Shown: positions 22,712 to 47,431 of the stretch, piece after piece | How positions within the stretch are numbered: the first letter of the stretch is position 1 | How the letters are laid out: every line of letters starts with the position of its first letter | From: Viridothelium virens | Lineage: Eukaryota; Ascomycota; Dothideomycetes; Trypetheliales; Trypetheliaceae | DNA: 64,000 bases | Direction of reading: 5' to 3' | Assembly: GCA_010094025.1 (NCBI GenBank) | Contig: ML991771.1 | Coordinates: forward strand, 744,001 to 808,000 | Program-made: the position numbers and the translations under genes | Notes under the pieces: generated by a model | Seen by the model: only the letters and a program-made list of their open reading frames with translations | What the model was told of the DNA's origin: nothing | The model's database searches: none

Positions 22712-22851
22712 CCTTACCGCGGTCGGTGGGTTCCTCAACTGATGATTAATACAATGTTGTGCGGCGTCAAAATAGGCCAACAAGATCATAACAGTAAGGT
22801 TGAATAATATTGTATCAAATACCAGTTGAGGAACCCCCCTCCGCGGTAAGG
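22712..22851. mobile_element. TA-type palindromic MITE, copy B (internally shortened)
   Basis: 140-bp member of the same family: CCTTACCGCGG at the left, CCGCGGTAAGG at the right, both followed inward by GGTTCCTCAACTG-type repeats. The core is shortened relative to the 179-181 bp copies. The right flank is TA, the left is TG, so one side of the target duplication has mutated. It ends only 29 bp from the stop codon of the HeLo gene and so may contribute to that gene's 3' UTR or terminator. Confidence 0.88.
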
Positions 22852-22880
22852 TACGCAATTGACCTCTACATGCGTAGAGT

Positions 22881-23828
22881 TTAGGGTGCTTGAGCACCAC
22901 CGTTGATGAATGAGTGGAAATCCGTGCTTTTCATAACTCCGCCCACCACTCTAGCCTCGCCCTTCGTGACTCCAACACGATAAGACACAACTTGCCCCTT
23001 TGGAGCCGGTTCAAGTTTCGCTCCATCAACGCTTCCTTGAAATACTCGTGAGCGGTCTTCCATCCTCTCAACGAGCCAATCGTATCCTTCTTCTGAGTGC
23101 ACTCTGGACTTGGGTTGGCCATCCGATGTCGTGCTGGGCACTTCCTCCGTGAACTGATGGGAGTCTTTGCGCTCCGCCATAATCGGTCGTGAAGCTTGAG
23201 AGCTTGTTCGACGAGCACCTCGATTAGCACCACTGACTGACTGTGGCTCAGATCCTTTGTTGTTCATTTGTGGTGAAGAGATGGAAGCAGTGTATAATCG
23301 CAGCGAAACGGCTTCCAGGTTTGATATGAAGAATTCAAGGTCGTTAATCAGAATGTCAAATTTCCCTTTATCGCGGATTGCCCAAGAAGTTGAACGCCGA
23401 ACCAACGAGATATTGCAACAATGGCCCAGGAGTCGACGTCCGGGCTTACCTTGGATAGCTCGAGCTGGGCCGCTTCGGTACAGCGAGGCCTTGAACCTCC
23501 ATTTGCGGGGTAGCACACTATACTTGCTTTTCAGCTGCTCAGCATCACCAAAGATACCAGCAATACCCTGCAGGCTTTTGTGAACCACATCCTTTTCACT
23601 GGACCATTGCTCCCGTACTTCTGTATCTTCCTGGCCTCCGTTGTTCACATCGACGGTCCGGCCCCAGGTGTCCAGTCGAGCCTTGAGCAAGGATAATTTC
23701 AAACAAGCTAGCTCGTAATCGCACTCGTAGCTCTTACTTAATTCGAAATATTCCATTAGCTCGACGCAAGTTGAGAACAAAGAAGCCAAAGCAACAGCTC
23801 CCAGCGCCAATCCAACAGGTTCTGCCAT
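22881..23828 (-). CDS. HET-S-like HeLo-domain protein with two C-terminal amyloid repeats
   Basis: 315-aa intracellular protein built like Podospora HET-S (289 aa): an N-terminal HeLo pore-forming domain (about 1-225) and a C-terminal prion-forming region. The N-terminus MAEPVGLALGAVALASLF aligns residue for residue with the HET-s start, followed by SKYSVL and TSWAIRDKGKFD blocks. The tail carries two pseudo-repeats: R1 VERMEDRSRVFQGSV (253-267) and R2 VGVTKGEARVVGGVM (285-299). R2 is close to HET-s VGKGESRV, and the two conserved arginines (261 and 293) are 32 residues apart, against 36 in HET-s. ATG 23828, single exon; a GTAAGC donor-like site inside has no usable acceptor. It faces the gene at 24327 head to head. 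Expected role: cell-death execution at the plasma membrane after amyloid templating. The frame looks whole. Confidence 0.88.
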   Translation of the reverse strand: MAEPVGLALGAVALASLFSTCVELMEYFELSKSYECDYELACLKLSLLKARLDTWGRTVDVNNGGQEDTEVREQWSSEKDVVHKSLQGIAGIFGDAEQLKSKYSVLPRKWRFKASLYRSGPARAIQGKPGRRLLGHCCNISLVRRSTSWAIRDKGKFDILINDLEFFISNLEAVSLRLYTASISSPQMNNKGSEPQSVSGANRGARRTSSQASRPIMAERKDSHQFTEEVPSTTSDGQPKSRVHSEEGYDWLVERMEDRSRVFQGSVDGAKLEPAPKGQVVSYRVGVTKGEARVVGGVMKSTDFHSFINGGAQAP

Positions 23829-24326
23829 TGCAATAGCCTCAAACTTGAAGCAAAAGACTTGAGAGGGGGGCTTCGGGACACGGCGGCCGTAAACAGGGCA
23901 AGGCTAGCCTTCATGTACCTACAGCGCCCTGGCTTTGGCCAAACACAGCCATCGAGACAAGTAGGCCAGCACATATCAAGCGTCCCCAAGCATATGCACC
24001 AAGCTGAAGAGAGCAGTCGAAAATGCACGCGATTTTCCGGCTATCGCGGGCCTGCGCATCTTTCCTCGTGAGGACCCCTGTACCCTAGTCGGTGAGCTCG
24101 GCCGCCCTTCCTGATAAAACCAGCTGTAGTACCGCGAAGACCAAAACTGCTGCCTCGCCGAGCTCTGTCGTCGTACATTGAAAAAGCACAACAGCCAACC
24201 TTCGAATGTGATATGCCAGTACGCGCTCGGCACCGCTGAGATCTCGGTAATGCCACTTTGCTAGGCGTCGACTGTACCTGTGCAGTTGCGCTGAAAGCGC
24301 ACCAAATTGCGCGGCATCAGCGCCAT
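23829..24326. promoter_or_regulatory. shared divergent promoter region of the HeLo / amyloid-motif pair
   Basis: 498 bp between two divergent start codons, so both promoters must lie here. No TATA or named operator recognised. Head-to-head spacing suggests coordinated expression (inference). Confidence 0.55.
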
Positions 24327-25184
24327 ATGACCGGTAATAATCATTATTACATCTTCGGAGAGTCATCCAACGTCGAAAATATAGAAGGCAATGCACGCAC
24401 CTTTCTAGGCCAAGTCCATTCGCCGTCTCCCGTCAATCAAGCCTATTCGCTGCCGCCAAGCATGGCAACTAAAGTCAGAAGCAGCGACGCCGCGGACGAT
24501 CGGAGCTATGACGAAGGAAGTGGTAGGTTCCAACATCCATTTTCTTCTCTCCGAGCCGAGGACCCAGTGTGCTAAGTTTTTCATAAAGCGTCCAATTCTA
24601 GCCAACACAATGAGAGTGTGTCTGCGCTTGCTCAAAGCCTCAATGAGCTGGCTCTGGATCCCGTTTCATTCCAAACCCAACCAGAGGTCTACCCTTCCGC
24701 GACAAACGGGAATAGGGTGGAAGAAAGGCGATGTGAACCGAGGGAAGAACATTATAAAGATTGCAGCAATTATATCCAGAAAGGCGACATTGTCAGAATC
24801 TGGCGCCCCATGAATACAGACGTCCATCTTACTACATTTTTAGTCCTTAATATTCAAGGCACCAACATGATTTGTCTCAGAATCGTGCATCGGGATCCTC
24901 GTGAGGTGGGTTACGGGTTCTCGAAGGACCATGCAAAGCTCAAGGTGGAGAAATATATTCATGGTGCACCCGACTTGTCGCCAAATCAGGATTCCGACTC
25001 GTGTCGTGCTATCATGAATGAGTCGCAGGATATGAAGGAAAATTGCTGGATCAACCTGCTCATTCCTGAGAATATCGACTCACGAAAAGAGTATAAGTTT
25101 GTCCGATGTGGTCAACTTGATGACGATTCGTTTGAGCGGGCTAAAGCGAAGCATCTTCGACTCTACGCAGCGAAATTACGATAA
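24327..25184 (+). CDS. protein with N-terminal HET-s-type amyloid motif and DUF6590-like domain
   Basis: Two exons, 24327-24522 and 24589-25184 (66-bp intron, branch-like GCTAAG, acceptor AAAG), give 263 aa. Residues 16-30, VENIEGNARTFLGQV, match repeat R1 of the neighbouring HeLo protein (VERMEDRSRVFQGSV) at 7 of 15 positions including the key Arg and Gly, placed at the extreme N-terminus as in the R0 motif of Podospora NWD2. The rest is a polar linker (31-100), then a domain with GDIVRIWRPM, FLVLNIQGTNMICLRIVH, DHAKLKV and CWINLLIP that resembles DUF6590; that match is from memory and weaker. No NACHT or NB-ARC domain is present. The acceptor at 24588 is chosen because it keeps the frame; TTCTAG at 24601 would not. 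ATG 24327 is the first ATG in frame. A role as trigger or adaptor for the HeLo protein is inference. Confidence 0.65.
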
Positions 25185-27116: not shown

Positions 27117-27129
27117 CAATTCCTACTTA

Positions 27130-27308
27130 CCTTACCGCGGAGGGAGGTTCCTCAACTGGTAATCAATACAATGTTATTTCAACTTTACTGTTGTGACCTT
27201 GTTGGCCCACGTCAACGCCGACTTAATATGGGCCAACATGGTCATATCAGTTAAACTGAGATAACATTGTATTGATTACCAGTTGAGGAAGCCCCCTCCG
27301 CGGTAAGG
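27130..27308. mobile_element. TA-flanked palindromic MITE, copy C
   Basis: 179-bp full-length member with intact TA duplication (27128-27129 and 27309-27310). Ends are CCTTACCGCGGAGGG and CCCTCCGCGGTAAGG, with the same TTCCTCAACTGGTAATCAATACAATG inner arms in inverted order. Same core orientation as copy A. Confidence 0.92.
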
Positions 27309-27492
27309 TATGCATATGCCCACCCCCGTCTGTTCCACCAATGAAATTGACTGGCGAGAAGATAACGGATTTGAGCTGTGATTTGCCATGGAATATTGGA
27401 AGTTGATCTAAGTGTCTTGCAGTCTCGGGCGCTCTCCCACTGAAGCCTTAAATAGACCATGATCAATTTGATCGAAACTGAATTCCTACTCA

Positions 27493-30123
27493 TCATCCGA
27501 TCTCTTGAGACTTCTGACTGTCATCTGCATAGGGCTTGCGCACCCTCAATTGACCAGACCGTTGGCCACCGATATCCTCTTCAATCTGCACTGCGCTAGA
27601 CTTGGCACCCTGTAGACGCAGAAACTCGCGACAGCGGCGCCCATCCTCGGCATAGACGTCTGCAGGGTTGTTGCCGCACCTTCGGAGTGCTGTTTCAAAT
27701 ACTTCGTCAATCCCATGAGTTATCGCATAGATTGCTGGCGTTGCAACGTGAGTGATAAAGAACGGTCCTTCAAACATGGATTTATCGAACATCCACCTGG
27801 GTGGTATAAAAATATGATGAATATCCGCTCCCAGCTGTATCAGTGTCGTTAAGTTATCGATGCAATACTCCAGCTTGGAAAGTTCCTCGACCGCGTCATC
27901 ATGATACAGAAATATGCCGCGCAAAAGTGCTAGAAGAGGTGACTCCCAAGAGTATATGCTAGAATAAATGCGATTTGGAGCGAACCCAACAACAGCAAGA
28001 AGTCGTACTAAGTGTGGTCTGTGAGAAAACTTTCTCAGCGCATCGTTCGGGTTAATATGATCCGGAAATGGGAACGCATTTCGGTGCAACGTGCCGAACC
28101 ATTCTATCATGAGCTCCGAGTGAGTTGACCATACATCATTGTACACGCTATCCATGTAGTAAGCTGAGTAAAAATCAAGTAGACTCGTGTCACTGGAGCT
28201 TGCGCCGGCCGGTAGGAGTGTCTTAAGCAGATTTGATGCCTGGTCGATATTGACCACGGGGGAATCGTCAGAATCCGAACGGAAATGAGCATAGAGGTAT
28301 GGGAACCCAACCCAATGGTCTATGATGGAAACGCCGGCGCTATTACATCAGTGGGCAATTTCCTCGATATATCTCAGAATACTTACTCATTCGTTCTTGA
28401 GGTGTTCGCACCACTGTTGATGAGAATATGACAAATTTCTGGACGGCATAAAAATGCTGCAGCCTGGCCTTCCAATCAGCCCACTGGAGTTAGAGTCGGA
28501 TAAGACAGATGGCTCACGTGTAAAAGTGTATTCCCCCCTTGGACCTTGATCATTTGGACCTGCTAGACCATTGTCTAGGAGAGAGCGAAGGCCTTCGACA
28601 TTATTGTCCCGAATGCAATCCCAAACTTCAGCGTTGTCTGAGATGATTGGGTACGTCGTAACGAAAGGACAGAGCTGATAGTATCCCTCAGCGACATGCA
28701 AAGTCGAGTAGAGCAGGGAGACGCAATTCCTACGTAGCAATGGACATGAAGGCCAGAAGTCAATCGACACGACCTTGTGTCTTGTGTGCCGCTTTCCGAC
28801 ATATCTGATGCATGTCTCAACCTTTACAAGGATCTTTCCCAGCCAAGACCACTTTCGATGGTACATCCAAATGGACTCTGTTTCAATTCTAGATGCGGGC
28901 CAGTGTGATGCAACGATGTCAGAGTTATTGGCATCTGAGAGTGGCAGATGTTGCGGATCTGTTGTCGAGTAATCGTTGGGGGTCGCTTCAAGGTGAATGC
29001 ACCTATCAACAGGCTTCAGACCAGCCGGACCGGAATATTTCGGAGTAAGTCTGCTGTCGGACGCTTCAAGAAAGCCTGGATATTGTACAAGTCCCGCACT
29101 GAGGTGATCTACAATACTCTGCAACTGTAAATTGAACCGTTCACGACGATCTTGAGATTCCGTGATTGCTTCCGTGACAGGATGTAGCAAGCGTTGAAGC
29201 TCCCACCTAATGACGTGTGAAATTTTCCGCTCGGAGTGGTCGTTGAGAGTAACGCGGGAAGAAGTCGCTGCTGATGTCGTTGCTGTCCAACCGACAAGCT
29301 CCAAGATTTTGTCGAGTTTTGAGGAGAGTTGTTGATTCTCTGAGACCGCAGCTCCGGAAAGACCCTGGCTCGAACTTTGGTGAGCGTCAGCGAATGCAGA
29401 TACCGGCAGCTGGGAACTTAGCAGGTTCGATGGTTCGGTGCCGATAGCCTCAGATCTTGATGCGAGGCTCGTTGGTTGGATGGGGGGTACCGGAAGTCGA
29501 TTGATACTTCCTTCGTTAGTGATGGATTGAATTTGTGAAGAGTCAATTCCCAAAGCTTCTAATTGTCTCCCTTGCACGTGCTGACGGCGACTAGGCACGA
29601 TCACATGTCAGCCATACCAGTGAGAATCTTTGAAAAACATACAGCATGACTACAAACATTGCAGTCTGTAGGCTTTCTCTCCAGCTCTCAACCTTCCTCA
29701 TAAGACTGCATACAGTCTTCTGATCCAATGTCCATTTGACCCTTGATCACAAACGAGTTTTTGTGTCTAGAGGGAGGATTGCTCTGATCTGATCGAGATC
29801 AGTGCGAAGGCCTCGCAGAGACGAGGCGAGAAGGAGCAGATCTCCGTGTGCATCATGGTGTTGATCAGCCTGACCATCGATTACGAGGGTAAAATGCAGA
29901 TAGTGCAGGATCGATTTTAGATTGTTAAGGACTGCCAGAACGTGAGCATTTCAACGATCTAAGATTTAGACGAGGGACATTTACTTGTGACATATTGTTG
30001 AACTTCCTGGGGTGCGCCTTGCACGTTATCGAAGAGTTGATACAGCCTGATGGTGGACTGTAGGGCTGTACCAAGAAGGGCCACCGACGATGAGACTCCC
30101 TCAAGGATTGTGAGTGGTTCCAT
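27493..30123 (-). pseudogene. STAND N-terminal-domain / ankyrin-like gene, probably decayed
   Basis: Exon pieces 30123-29985, 29931-29643, 29590-28387 and 28339-27493 are joined by 52-53 bp introns (47 bp for the last). The start MEPLTILEGVSSSVALLG and RVKWTLDQKTVCSLMRKVESW are typical of the fungal STAND N-terminal (PigL_N-like) helical domain. IRWELQRLLHPVTEAI and a C-terminal ankyrin-like region (VWDCIRDNNVEGLRSLLDNG, LIQLGADIHHIF) follow. Two problems: an in-frame TGA at 29747-29749 inside the conserved N-terminal domain, and a frame mismatch with a TGA (28387-28389) at the end of the third exon. The gene is therefore probably a pseudogene, unless my exon 3/4 junction is wrong or the assembly has errors. 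No nucleotide-binding domain is seen. Confidence 0.5.
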
Positions 30124-31834
30124 CCGTTTACTAGAACAGTCAAAATCTCTTGGTTAATGATGAGGCGGAAAGAGGCAGGCCTCTTCTTAAAAGTCAGCCG
30201 CCAAACGGAGAAGTGATTGCAAAGCTCGCAAAGTCCACTGCCCGAGCCTCCCTGTACTTGGCTGAGAGAGCTGCACGTCAGGTTGCAGAACATGGAAGTG
30301 GAGAACAACGCGACATCGCTACTTCTCAAAGTAGTGTTGAGAACCTTGTAAATTCTTCTACCTCGGGCGGCTCATATGCGTAACGAAAATCGATTTGGTG
30401 GTAGAGCTGAGTCGTAGGTCAAAAGGAGAATGAGATTGCCCATGAAATGTGGAGAGCCTACGTAAATTCCAAGATTTTTTAACGAGCCCATCAATCAACC
30501 AATCACTATAATTGGCACTTCACTAGCCTGATATATGCAGTGTCAGCTATATTTGTGGATTTCAGCTCACGAGCAGAGAAGAAATCGGTACCTAAATGCA
30601 CTCCGTAATCTAAGTACCGCATTCTGCTGAGCACGGGCTACCAGAAGCATTCGAAATAAGGATAGCCAACCATGCAAGTAGCCTAAGCTTCTCCATGAGC
30701 ATTCTAAGCCGTGGTCAAAGAACCTAAGTTGTAGCTGAGTGAAGCTTGAGCCAGTAGCTGTCATGCTCATCATAATTTAGTAGGACTCGAGTCTTGAGCA
30801 GGCATTATTCGTTGAGTTTGCGCGCTGTAAATATACATACATGTTGATTATGAAGACGTGCCAGTCGAAAAAGGTCGCAATATCGTCAAGCTCGATACAC
30901 AGCATGCACGAGCGAAGTAGATTGCAATAAGGTACAGGCTGAGATTCTAGGAAATAACAAGTTTCCGCACTCTCTGAGAGTTGTAGATCATTTTCTCACG
31001 GGACGGTCTAGGATCATTTTGATCACGTGCCATCGTAGCCACCGTACCAGTCAAGCAAGCCAGACAACTCTGGAAAAGGCGATAAAAGTCTTTTGCATAA
31101 GGTCTCACTGACAAGGGAAGGAAGCGAGCAAGTTTCAGTATCATTGTAGTACCTAATTATCAGAGCACAGAGAGTTCATGTAAAGCAAGTGAACCAGTAG
31201 TCCCAAAGACATCACCGTCCTCCAGCATCCTTCCGATATCTGGTACCAGCTACATCATCGGAACAGCAGCCATCTCGATGGTTGCTCGTTCAATGATCAG
31301 ACCATGCCATTAGTGAATGGCCTCAAGCAGTGCCGTCCAAGAGGGGTAGTCGATATGGCTGCGAATTCGACGAAGGCGCCAGTGCAACCTTCGCGCAGCC
31401 TGCATATGAGTGTTCGTGTAGTAGGAGATGTTATCCGACAAGAGCGCCAAGAGTGCGTTCTGAAAAGAATTTGATTTGTGATCCTTGTGTTTGTGCGCGT
31501 GAGCGCTTGGCGATTTGCCAATGAAAAGAGGAGGAAAAATCAGTGTCGACCGTTGAGCTACTCAACGCCCATGTAATTGTGTGTACTTGTCAGGAAACCA
31601 GTGCAAGCAATAGGTGAATAAGGTGAAACCGGTCATCGTCGCTCGATGGTGTTGTGCATGTGTCTACAATATCGAAAATCCAGCGAAGAGAGAATAGCAA
31701 ATCGTACAATGCAGTGTCGATAAAGAAAAAAAGACAGTTCAGCTTCCATTGTCATGGCTACTCAGAGTGATGATGTTGATGATGGGCACTTTGCTGAAAG
31801 CCTTGTCGATTGCACATTGTCGTTATGTGGTCGT
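30124..31834. other. intergenic
   Basis: About 1.7 kb; only short open frames, none recognised. The right end is probably the 3' UTR of the gene ending at 31835. Confidence 0.4.
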
Positions 31835-40413: not shown

Positions 40414-42309
40414 ATGTCTGCAAATATGTGTGGAGCATTATGCATATGGCAATTCTTTCCCATCAGATACGCCCGCCACCGACTTGTTTCAAGGATTATA
40501 ATCATGGCGACCCAAAGCATGCACTCTCTTGAGCCAGCACCACAAGCGCTGCTTCCTGGTACATTATTTCCTACCTACAGAAAATTGTCGGTCACGTGAC
40601 TCATCTAGTCAGATTTAGAGCATGGCGATGAACTCTTCAATTATACTCGAGGGCGCTTCATCACAGATGAGGCAAATGAGATGTCATAACGCCGAGTTCG
40701 CTTTAACGTCAATGAGCTAGGCCGTCGAGCCGCCGAAGTCCTCGGAGCGAAATCATGCATTCGCATTGAAAAGTACCCTGACGGCATGTACAACAAGAGT
40801 ATGCTCCTCACCATGGATGATGGCTCTCAGGTTGTGGCTAAAATTCCGAATCCAAATGCCGGCATGCCCCATTTTACCACCGCGAGTGAGGTTGCGACAA
40901 TGGATTTCGTATGTCGTGCCAGAGTCGTTGCGTCTGGGGACATGATTGACACTTCGCAGGCACGAAATATTCTAGAAACTCCTATCCCCAGAGTCTTAGC
41001 TTGGAGTTCCAAAGCCCAAGAGAATCCTATTGGTGCAGAATATATTATCATGGAGCGAGCTCCGGGAATCGAGCTTGAACGGTTTTGGCCAACTATGAGT
41101 ATCAAAGACAAACTCGCTCTTGTCAAGAACATTGCTGGTTACCAGAACGCCTGGGCCTCGATTTCCTTCAAGAAATTTGGAAGTCTTTACTACGCAAAGG
41201 ATCTGGATGAAGCAGCCGAGAATGAGCCTTTGTACGTCGATGCAAATGGAATCAATATCACAGATAAGAAATTCGCCATGGGCCCATCTACAGGACGCGA
41301 ATTAATGGACAATGGAAGAGCGAACATTAGCTTTGACAGTGGACCATGTATGATTTGCAATCCTACAGCAAGATCTTCTAACTAAAAAATCCAAGGGCGC
41401 ACTTTAGAGAAATATCATGCTGCGATCGGGCATCGAGAAATGGCCTGCGTCAGCCAGCTTCCTCGCCTACCCAAGTCTCCAATAACCCTGTGCGGTCCAG
41501 GAACCTACCAGCCGACCAGAGAAAAGAAACTGAGAGCGTTGAGCTGTTATCCTACATTGATTAAGTTCTTACTCCCAAAAGACGAAGCCGTTTCATCCGC
41601 ACATCTCTGGCATGGTGACCTACATGTTGCTAATATATTCGTGAACCCTTCCAAACCCACCGAAGTTGTGGGTATTATTGATTGGCAATCAACCGAAACA
41701 TCTCCTCTCTATTTCCAAGCTCGTCAACCTCAGGTAATTGATTATGATGGCCCCCCTGTCCACGGTCTGGAACGACCGCAGCCTCCAAATGATATGGACA
41801 AACTTGGCGCAAACGCAAAGAAGCAGGCAGAGACCTTATACGTTCAGCAATCACTCTGCTCTCTATACAACACCCTTATTCACCATCGAACACCACGAGT
41901 TTACGCTGCGCTCGAGTTCCAGCGAACCCCGAGCTACTTACTTCTGCTTCTTGCTCGTAACCTCCTCAGCGATAGCGAAGCAACCTACCTCTCACAAGTG
42001 ATCGAACTGGAGGCAGTATGGGACACGCTTCCTAGAGCCGAGGGCTCGACTTATCCACTTGCGTTCTCGACGAAAGAGCGGCAAGAAATTGAGGCTAATG
42101 TTGAGGATGTGGAGCGGGGTATGGAAATGATGCTCTCAATTAGAGGAAGTATAGGTGAATTGTTTCCCGAGCAAGGAATAGTGAGACCAGAACGATACAG
42201 AGAGGCTTTAGACGCGTTAAGGCAGATGAAAAGCCAAGTCATCAAGGAATTTGCTAGCACTAAGCAGGAGGAAGAGTTATGGCAAACACCATGGCCTTTT
42301 GGAGCTTAA
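40414..42309 (+). pseudogene. AIM9: AIM9-like phosphotransferase (APH/kinase fold) gene with one premature stop
   Basis: Proposed exons 40414-40558, 40619-41347 and 41396-42309 (introns 60 and 48 bp). The protein belongs to the fungal Altered Inheritance of Mitochondria 9 / aminoglycoside phosphotransferase-like family. Visible: HGDELFNYTRGRF, VVAKIPNPNAG, TTASEVATMDF, EYIIMERAPG, the catalytic loop HLWHGDLHVANIF and metal-binding VGIIDWQSTE. The second intron restores the family sequence GPW-RTLEKYHAAIG. An in-frame TAA at 40687-40689, where relatives have a Tyr or Arg codon, interrupts the N-terminal lobe; everything after it is intact. Either a very young pseudogene, a sequencing error, or expression from ATG 40786, which would lose part of the N-lobe. 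The N-terminus may be a mitochondrial presequence. Confidence 0.7.
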
Positions 42310-44788: not shown

Positions 44789-46333
44789 CTACAAATGTTT
44801 CCGTGCACGTCTTGCACGATGCTTCCTCGCCATATTCAGGTTCATACTTGCAGTATTACCACAAGTCCCAAATCCCGCCTGACATCCATTCCCACAATAA
44901 TCTCCTGAACTCCCACAGTACCCATGAGCAGAGCAGCAATTGCCCATTATCGACCCCTGACAAGTCTGTCCCGCATTCCCGCCACAAGCTCCATCCAGGG
45001 AGACCTTCGACCCACCAGCCGCTGCCGCCGCCGATGACGACGGAGCAGCAGCAGCAGGACCGGACACAGCCGACGACCAATCCGAACCCGTCGGTGCAGA
45101 CGCCCCCACCGTCCCACTAATCTTCGCCCACACCGCACTCGCACTCCGACTCAACTCGCCCGTATCCACCTCACTCCCCTCCACATTGCCCTTCCCCAGC
45201 AGCACCACCCCCATCGGACTCGGACTCGGCGACGGACTCAGCGTCTTCGGCTCAGGCGTCAGATCCCGCCCATACCCCGGGGGGCCCTGCAGCGTTGCGT
45301 CGGCGGCGGCACCGGCGCTCTGACACTGCGCCTGGATGGCGTCGCAGCGCGCCTCCCAGATGCGGCAGCCGAAGGAGCCGGTTGGCGGCGCGGCGGCGTA
45401 GCAGGATCGCGCTTGGGCCCAGCAGGCGGCGGAGGCGTTATAGCAGCCTGAGAGGGTGGTGTAGGGCGGGAGCTCGGTGCCGAACCAGTTTGCGGCGATG
45501 AGGATGGTGGAGGGTGGAGGGAGGCCTTCGGACTGCTGTAGTTGCTGCTGTTGGGCTTTGGCGTCTTTAGAGTCGGAGGTGGATAGGGTGGAGATGTTGG
45601 CGATGGCGGGGCCGGGCAGCGGATATGGGAGGGCGAGGGGTGTGGTCCAGATGTCGAAGTGGACGGGGGGTGACATGGGCTGGATATAGGAAGGGATGGA
45701 GACGGTGGAGGTGGGCTTGCCGGTGCCGGTGGAGTTGACGAAGAGTTGGGCACAGCCGACATAGAATTGTGGGTTCGAAGGTACCTTATCGGCTTGATGA
45801 AGGGCGAGGAGTTCGGGCCGTGCAAGGTAGTAGCCACCTTCGAGGGAGGAGGGTAGTTGGACGTAGAAATGGCCAGCGTTGTCACGAAGCTTCTCGGTAC
45901 ACCATTTTCCAGCGGTCTCGTCGTAGCCATCATCCCAAATCTTGAACCAGCCGTCGCCGACGCCCGTATCGTTGATAGCGGAAACGACTTTCTTCAAGTA
46001 GACAGCACACGGTCCTTTATGTGATATGTCGATACTCTCAGCGGAGCTGTCATCCGGAATTGCGCGGTATTCGAAAGTGATGGTAGAGCCCGCATTGGCA
46101 GGGCAGACTTGGGCGACACCATCCTCTCCGTTATATCCACAGGCCATCTCATTGCCTAAGAGATTGTTGATTGGAAATGTAGCATTGTTGGGAACCATAG
46201 GCATGCGAACGCATGTTGCATTGCCTTGGTCTACGCCATCGAGGTAAAAGTTCGTAAACAAAGTATGTCCAGCAGCCAGCTGAGCGACTCCCAGAGCCGC
46301 GAGAGCCGATTTGAGAATAGTAGTGGAAGGCAT
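44789..46333 (-). CDS. AA9 lytic polysaccharide monooxygenase with C-terminal CBM18
   Basis: Secreted copper enzyme that cleaves cellulose or hemicellulose oxidatively. 514 aa: signal peptide 1-22, mature N-terminal His23 (HTLFTNFYLDG), second histidine-brace residue His105 in SHKGPCAVYL, conserved His179 and the QFYVGCAQL motif with Gln189 and Tyr191. After the catalytic domain (to about 215) comes a Ser/Pro/Ala-rich linker with a Cys-rich segment (CYNASAACW to CDAIQAQC), then an eight-cysteine hevein-like CBM18 (450-491, CGGNAG to GFGTC), which binds chitin. The end is basic (ARKHRARRARKHL). Most AA9 enzymes carry CBM1, so CBM18 is unusual. ATG 46333 is chosen because it starts a clean signal peptide; the frame is open further upstream. 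A composition flip lies at about 45.28 kb. Confidence 0.92.
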   Translation of the reverse strand: MPSTTILKSALAALGVAQLAAGHTLFTNFYLDGVDQGNATCVRMPMVPNNATFPINNLLGNEMACGYNGEDGVAQVCPANAGSTITFEYRAIPDDSSAESIDISHKGPCAVYLKKVVSAINDTGVGDGWFKIWDDGYDETAGKWCTEKLRDNAGHFYVQLPSSLEGGYYLARPELLALHQADKVPSNPQFYVGCAQLFVNSTGTGKPTSTVSIPSYIQPMSPPVHFDIWTTPLALPYPLPGPAIANISTLSTSDSKDAKAQQQQLQQSEGLPPPSTILIAANWFGTELPPYTTLSGCYNASAACWAQARSCYAAAPPTGSFGCRIWEARCDAIQAQCQSAGAAADATLQGPPGYGRDLTPEPKTLSPSPSPSPMGVVLLGKGNVEGSEVDTGELSRSASAVWAKISGTVGASAPTGSDWSSAVSGPAAAAPSSSAAAAAGGSKVSLDGACGGNAGQTCQGSIMGNCCSAHGYCGSSGDYCGNGCQAGFGTCGNTASMNLNMARKHRARRARKHL

Positions 46334-47431
46334 ATCTTCGGGAGAAATCAATGAAAGGATAGATGCCGGAACGAACTCCGATGAAAGGAATGTCTGTACT
46401 TGGTCTAATGGGCGAAAGAGGATTGCTAATTTCCTAAAATGCCTTGCCAATATGAAGCAACAGGAACAAGAAAGTAAAGGTTTGGGAAGAAAATGTAGCT
46501 CAGGTGCCGGGCTGCTGCATTCTATTGTTTGGCAACGCAATCACGCGGAGGGCGTCAACAAAGGAAATCTCGTGTTAGCCACAACCAAGAACACAGACTC
46601 TGCTGTGAATGTGAAGGGCAAGGAGATGAAGCCGTCGCATAAAAAGACTTTTGAAGTTTGCTTGACCTACGGTCACGCGAAAGTGGATCTGGAAGATTTG
46701 CATCTCACGCTTTTCGGTCTTGCTATTAAGTCCCATAGTATTTCTAAAAGCTGTCATTGCCACATCAAGAATGTACGGTTTGTGGGATTGACGGCGGCTA
46801 TTCAAGAGGTTTCACGAGCTCAAATGTTGTTAGGAAGCGGAGGGATGTTCATCTTTCTAGAGTAGATGGAGGGACAGAACAAGGACGGACCAATCGCTCA
46901 ATCTCACAAATCCGAACTTTTGATCAACCTTGTCGATACTAGGATGGACCTTTTTCCCATGAGGATCGAGCGCTTTACACGATCTTACTCAATCATCACC
47001 TCAGATCATGGCGGAAGAACTTCCAATAATGGTAATCCGATGGGTCCATATCCACTTCAGGTGTGGGAGACGCGACTTCTTAACTGGACCCACTAATTAC
47101 CGAGCAGCATCACCATGATGATGTAGAGTGGCAAACTGGACTGATAGAGGCAGGGATTACAATTTTTTTTTTTCTACATGTTCTTTGATTCTATTACCTT
47201 TGCTCAAAGCAGGCGCCGAGACACCGCGTAATTATGCATTGCTCCGATGCATGTATCCTTGCAATATCAATATTCGAGCCCTGGTATACTAGAAAAAAGG
47301 CGCCGAAGTGAGAAGACGCAGTCCTCAACTCCATGGCAGTGATGGTATATTGCAATGAGAGTCCCGTTTGTGCTTTATATTGTTACCCTGAACTACCTCG
47401 CTTGCTAGACAAGAGAAAACTACAGAAGCTC
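46334..47431. other. intergenic, LPMO promoter side
   Basis: 1.1 kb; upstream region of the LPMO gene and 3' side of the MFS gene. One 184-codon plus-strand frame (46311-46865) overlaps the LPMO start antisense and matches nothing. Confidence 0.4.

Follow-up and report, generated by a model that had tools for sequence, protein, structure and literature searches.

Fungal amyloid signaling has been described as passing from NLRs to executor proteins, and among published HeLo-HRAM genes 98 of 155 have an adjacent NLR (PMC4518210), which by subtraction leaves 57 without a reported one. The window studied here, by which we mean the whole 64-kb stretch of DNA that was analyzed, holds a HeLo gene and, transcribed divergently from it, a small putative gene with a similar motif near its N-terminus. 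The locus raises the question of whether an executor of this kind may take its input from a protein that is not an NLR. An earlier note on this DNA had read the pair as HET-S logic in which the NLR was replaced by a small DUF6590-like domain, a receptor or adaptor class of a new kind.

The HeLo gene and its candidate C-terminal repeats

The gene at 22881..23828 on the minus strand is a single exon encoding 315 amino acids, the stop codon being included in the coordinates. Its product matched the Pfam HeLo family (PF14479) over residues 6-174 with E=5.6e-29, and a sequence search of the PDB returned 2wvn, 2wvo, and 2wvq ("small s protein", the HET-s HeLo structures; E 7.3e-14 to 1.4e-9) as the sole matches at E<=10. 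By a codon-usage score for which nine long window ORFs served as the training set, the annotated frame was the best of the six. The open reading frame and HeLo assignment given earlier were therefore upheld, and with a HeLo domain at the N-terminus, as in executors of the HET-S type, the predicted protein is a genuine member of that group.

HET-s-related amyloid motifs (HRAMs) are described as pairs of 21-residue repeats with a conserved Gly at position 19 and a preference for Arg or Lys at position 15 (PMC4518210). The first candidate repeat, R1, spans residues 247-267 (23028..23090, minus strand; Gly19 is residue 265). The second, R2, was located by means of the position pattern published for HRAMs (Gly19, Arg15, polar residues at 11-13) and spans residues 279-299 (22932..22994, minus strand; Gly19 is residue 297). 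A register with Gly19 at residue 296 was dropped, as it displayed only 6 of 10 HRAM features and failed to pick out the motif of the neighboring gene, R0, in its first exon. The linker between R1 and R2 is 11 residues long, and the translated C-terminal tail after R2 (residues 300-315; 22884..22931, minus strand) contains two Phe residues and a diglycine. Linkers of 6-18 residues were reported for 154 of 155 HRAM pairs, and aromatic residues and diglycines are often found in the tails of HRAM proteins (PMC4518210).

We scored the motifs against ten features drawn from PMC4518210, with the 40,087 21-mers of the window ORFs as background. R1 displayed eight features, a score of at least 8 being reached by 30 of the 40,087 (R1 included), and lacked those at positions 3 and 8. 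R2 displayed seven and lacked those at positions 3, 8, and 18; seven features were reached by 283 of the 40,087, with R0, R1, and R2 included in that count. All three motifs carry Gly19 together with Arg at position 15, and positions 10 and 16 are hydrophobic in each when Thr is counted. HRAM hydrophobic residues are generally found at 5, 8, 10, 16, and 18 (PMC4518210), a set that is incomplete in R0, R1, and R2: position 8 is non-hydrophobic in all three, and position 18 is occupied by Leu in R0, by Gln in R1, and by Gly in R2, Gln18 being known from HRAM4. Position 3 is never Asn, Gln, or His. Charge complementarity between repeats has also been reported for HRAMs (PMC4518210). Across the six positions compared, R1 and R2 have opposite charges at 11 and 13, which are two of the three HET-s salt-bridge positions, and like charges at none; the net complementarity was reached by about 1% of shuffles.

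R1 and R2 are identical at only 4 of 21 positions, and a blind self-comparison of the tail was not significant, with 257, 132, and 336 of 500 shuffles doing as well at lengths of 13, 15, and 21 residues. The claim that the protein has two HET-s-type repeats thus held insofar as R2 fits the published position pattern, but did not gain from the blind comparison. The 82-residue HeLo tail had no match at E<=10 to a HET-s family of Pfam, PF11558 (HET-s(218-289)) among them; PF11558 recognizes only 38 of the 155 published HRAM pairs, and the constraint on HRAM sequences is described as loose (PMC4518210). A single-sequence AlphaFold2 run on 71 residues of the tail yielded no confident solenoid (pLDDT 50.9).

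The divergent neighbor and its N-terminal motif

The start codons of the two genes are separated by a shared divergent intergenic region of 498 bp (23829..24326), and the neighbor opens with an ATG at 24327 on the plus strand, just as the earlier reading had it. Its putative first exon (24327..24522, plus strand) is an open frame that carries R0 at residues 10-30 (24354..24416; Gly19 is residue 28). R0 displayed seven of the ten HRAM features and lacked those at positions 3, 5, and 8, with Ser at position 5. In gapless alignment it is identical to R1 at 8 of 21 positions and to R2 at 6 of 21, a closer likeness than that of R1 to R2, and the previously noted identity of partner residues 16-30 to R1 at 7 of 15 positions was confirmed.

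That R0 would outscore shuffled sequence had been posed as a check, and it did so in several comparisons, which share data and are not independent. Over the whole 82-residue HeLo tail, the best match of exon 1 was equaled by 49, 16, 13, and 47 of 5000 shuffles at lengths of 13, 15, 17, and 21 residues. The exon 1 segment was the top non-self match to the tail among 555 ORF segments of 65 residues, by a thin margin over unrelated ORFs (34 versus 33 at 15 residues and 31 versus 30 at 21). Against a two-row profile of R1 and R2, R0 ranked first of the 40,087 21-mers after R1 and R2 themselves (37 versus 30; z 5.1), and its score was equaled by 1 of 5000 exon shuffles. The register of R2 had been set by eye from Gly19 and Arg15 before this profile test, and a blind search of 377 tail register pairs served as the check; its top six results were all the R0 alignment of the profile test, and the best score was reached by 0 of 300 shuffles. 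Against R1 alone, the score of R0 was reached by 1 of 2000 shuffles; against R2 alone, it was not significant (360 of 2000).

Pattern searches covered 440 ORFs of the window. A core pattern built from the positions named in PMC4518210, weaker evidence when taken alone, had 10 matches, among them R0 and R1 with R2 missed, and the same pattern without position 18 had 15, all three motifs included. When hydrophobic residues at 17 and 21 were added, only R0, R1, and R2 matched; this last pattern was picked after the motifs had been seen, although the 17/21 covariation itself is published. Another pattern, with Ala or Ser at position 14 (5 matches), and the core patterns tried alongside the feature scoring were likewise picked after the motifs had been seen, and we do not count them as evidence. 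Exon 1 had no HET-s match in Pfam. By these comparisons, the resemblance of R0 to R1 and R2 exceeds chance within the 64-kb window, and the motif lies near the N-terminus of a putative exon in an adjacent, divergent gene.

The codon score of exon 1 was 0.142, the best of six frames, and 3.6% of 112 open intergenic windows scored as high. A putative second exon (24589..25184, plus strand) would encode a linker and a C-terminal domain without a known family; it lies within a 202-codon stop-free frame that ends at 25184, shares the phase of the frame opened at 24327, and is also the best of six by codon score. The likely intron between them, as judged from the sequence, is the in-frame 66-nt segment at 24523..24588 (plus strand, GTAGGT...AAAG), with which the C-terminal domain would comprise the 142 residues from 122 to 263 (24756-25181, plus strand). 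The donor GTAGGT at 24523 is a good one, and 16 in-frame GT-AG pairs were listed. Acceptors in frame with this donor lie at 24576 (AAG), 24588 (AAG), and 24684 (CAG, for a 162-nt intron), which would give proteins of 267, 263, and 231 residues, respectively, all retaining R0 and the C-terminal domain. Over codons 24591-24683 the frame of exon 2 scored best (0.077 versus 0.007 and -0.064), so an acceptor before 24684 is mildly favored and the long intron mildly disfavored. The same donor with the acceptor TTCTAG at 24601 makes what we take, by fungal splice preferences, to be the best-looking short intron, yet that junction breaks the frame and would give a 135-residue product without the C-terminal domain. 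Of the exon claimed earlier at 24327-24522, the open frame and the good donor stood, whereas its best-looking acceptor is out of frame. The join of exon 1 to exon 2 is uncertain and is the weakest point of the partner model.

Searches of Pfam, NCBIfam, and the PDB sequences gave no significant match for either exon. Sub-threshold hits, which we take as chance, were SeleniumBinding (Pfam, E 0.32) for exon 2 and, from the queries with exon 1, exon 2, and the HeLo tail, DUF7793 and DUF4170 in Pfam and lactadherin (E 0.31) and PNPase (E 1.1) in the PDB. The proposed likeness of the partner domain to DUF6590 was a loose one. Pfam gave no such match at E<=10, either with the 202 residues of exon 2 or with the last 142, and the label is therefore unsupported. 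A new class of receptor or adaptor is a candidate reading of the partner. An AlphaFold2 single-sequence model of the 142-residue domain was unreliable (pLDDT 50.0). Searches for relatives found none of exon 2 or of the HeLo protein in viral contigs and none of exon 2 in prokaryotic genome contigs, collections that are uninformative for fungi.

No NACHT or NB-ARC match was obtained in Pfam with 28 protein queries from the window, some of them overlapping and the partner among them. The other ORFs, and the stretch at 25.2-27.5 kb, were covered by a six-frame search for Walker A only. Walker-A-like strings occur three times in the six frames of the whole 64 kb, at about 14.6, 46.2, and 62.1 kb; each sits close to a stop codon, and none is near the pair. 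The predicted partner, which by Pfam has neither NACHT nor NB-ARC with repeats, is without a recognizable NLR part.

Two related MITE-like inverted-repeat elements, about 4.4 kb apart, bracket the pair and point to mobile-element activity in the vicinity. The one at 22725-22853 has 34-nt arms that are 82% complementary, and the one at 27128-27310 has 82-nt arms that are 89% complementary. The next gene (27496-30126, minus strand) is weakly similar over its first 45 residues to PF17111 (PigL_N, E 0.09, under the cut-off), a family termed HeLo-like in PMC9815663. Its pieces are separated by an in-frame stop, as would be expected of a pseudogene or of an unrecognized intron; in Pfam, three pieces between 27.5 and 30.1 kb matched none of WD, TPR, ankyrin, and NACHT. 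Farther along the window, an APH-like phosphotransferase gene (40690-42309, plus strand) consists of two same-phase frames split by one stop or intron, of which Pfam APH matches the second half only (E 1.4e-6). At 44789-46540 (minus strand) lies a gene for an AA9 polysaccharide monooxygenase (E 2.9e-48), the C-terminal part of which is similar to Chitin_bind_1 at a score under the curated cut-off (E 6.1e-5).

A possible non-NLR input and competing explanations

The above considerations suggest that cell death may be switched on here by an input that is not the usual NLR immune receptor. We judge the chances to be even that the locus is a divergent HET-S-type amyloid signaling pair in which R0 resides on a small non-NLR protein and that protein serves as the input. 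The mechanism that we infer for such a pair would require that the two exons are joined, that the C-terminal domain acts as a sensor, and that the repeats undergo amyloid folding and templating. The HeLo protein, a membrane-death executor, would be restrained as long as its C-terminal repeat pair has not folded into a β-solenoid of two rungs. The small plus-strand protein would bear one cognate rung, R0, at its N-terminus, and binding of a ligand by its C-terminal domain, or clustering of that domain, would cause R0 segments to stack. The stacked R0 could then template R1 and R2, and the HeLo domain would be unleashed on the membrane. More specifically, the executor may be under a compact, ATPase-free sensor or adaptor made of an unclassified domain of about 140 residues and its own HET-s-type nucleation motif, which we regard as possible but somewhat doubtful.

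Work in Podospora bears on whether an R0 carrier needs to be an NLR. There, induction of the HET-s fold requires the N-terminal rung of NWD2, and this rung suffices for it; NWD2(1-30)-GFP expressed from a strong promoter induces the prion with no NACHT domain present, although in mammalian cells it was insufficient (PMC4344463). Activity without NACHT makes a non-NLR carrier of R0 mechanistically possible, and a small protein that clusters copies of R0 could therefore do the same. The earlier proposal of HET-S logic with the NLR replaced thus survives as regards the HeLo domain, the gene geometry, the shuffling tests, and the missing NACHT/NB-ARC match, and fails as regards DUF6590 as the replacement domain.

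The likeness of R0 to the repeats could also be fortuitous, in which case the HeLo protein would have an amyloid tail of its own and a distant NLR partner at another genomic locus, and the plus-strand gene would be a neighbor without any link to it. The likeness spans only about 15-21 residues, published core positions fail in all three motifs, the margin over unrelated ORFs across the whole tail is thin, and R0 compared with R2 alone is not significant. On the other hand, few or no shuffles did as well with the whole tail at 15 residues, with the R1 and R2 profile, or in the blind register search, and the match falls at the N-terminus of an adjacent divergent gene; we consider coincidence unlikely.

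Alternatively, R0 may be the first exon of a lost NLR, now joined, by splicing or fusion, to a downstream frame that is unrelated to it, in a pair that is decaying. The uncertain splice junction, the inverted-repeat elements on both sides, and the seemingly broken gene at 27.5-30.1 kb are what such decay might leave behind. Both exons nevertheless score as coding-like by codon usage when read in the joined frame, exon 2 lies in its long stop-free frame, no Walker-A-like string is near, and the pieces of the broken gene are without WD, TPR, ankyrin, or NACHT, which together make a remnant distinctly improbable. A further reading, and to us a very improbable one, treats the exons as separate transcripts, with exon 1 encoding a short R0-only peptide of about 135 residues that seeds or modulates the HeLo protein. 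The frame-breaking intron would yield a peptide of just this length, and NWD2(1-30)-GFP is active alone from a strong promoter, but the frame-shifted extension is not in the coding frame that scores best for exon 2, and the exon 2 frame lacks an early in-frame Met. We hold with moderate confidence that the small R0 protein is either a new sensor or adaptor or the remnant of a lost NLR.

Relation to described amyloid signaling pairs

A limited open-access literature search, covering passages of PMC4518210, PMC9815663, PMC7889193, PMC3321046, PMC12258605, PMC12881547, PMC4344463, and PMC12261475, found no case in which a HeLo protein is paired with a protein that is not an NLR and bears a HET-s-type motif at its N-terminus. 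A non-NLR carrier of R0 would be new relative to the described NLR-based pairs, a reading that draws on this one locus. It would uncouple amyloid nucleation from oligomerization by a NOD-ATPase. If the reading is correct, amyloid death signaling in fungi would be a plug-in open to non-NLR receptors, and such receptors could account for part of the 57 HeLo-HRAM genes (of 155) that lack a reported NLR neighbor.

The closest parallel is het-S/nwd2 of Podospora anserina, in which a HeLo executor with a C-terminal repeat pair likewise has a head-to-head neighbor with one N-terminal copy of the motif, nwd2 and het-s also being divergently transcribed. The placement of R0 at residues 10-30 is near that of the NLR motifs, which occupy residues 3-23 in NWD2, most HRAMs being at positions 5-9 (PMC9815663). 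Unlike NWD2, the partner here is without recognizable NACHT or WD repeats and would have about 230-267 residues by the candidate splicings, and R0, R1, and R2 all depart from the known motifs at positions 3 and 8. With HRAM subfamilies 1-5 (PMC4518210), the three motifs have in common Gly19, Arg15, a polar arch at 11-13, and hydrophobic residues or Thr at 10 and 16, as well as the 17/21 hydrophobic pairing, the charge complementarity of the repeats, the linker length, and the aromatic and diglycine tail. They differ from those subfamilies in the non-hydrophobic position 8 and in a Val7 common to R0, R1, and R2. HELLF/FNT1 and HELLP/PNT1 are two-gene amyloid cell-death modules, as the present pair would be, but both published pairs rely on NLRs (PMC7889193), and HELLF carries a HeLo-like domain whereas the executor described here carries a HeLo domain.
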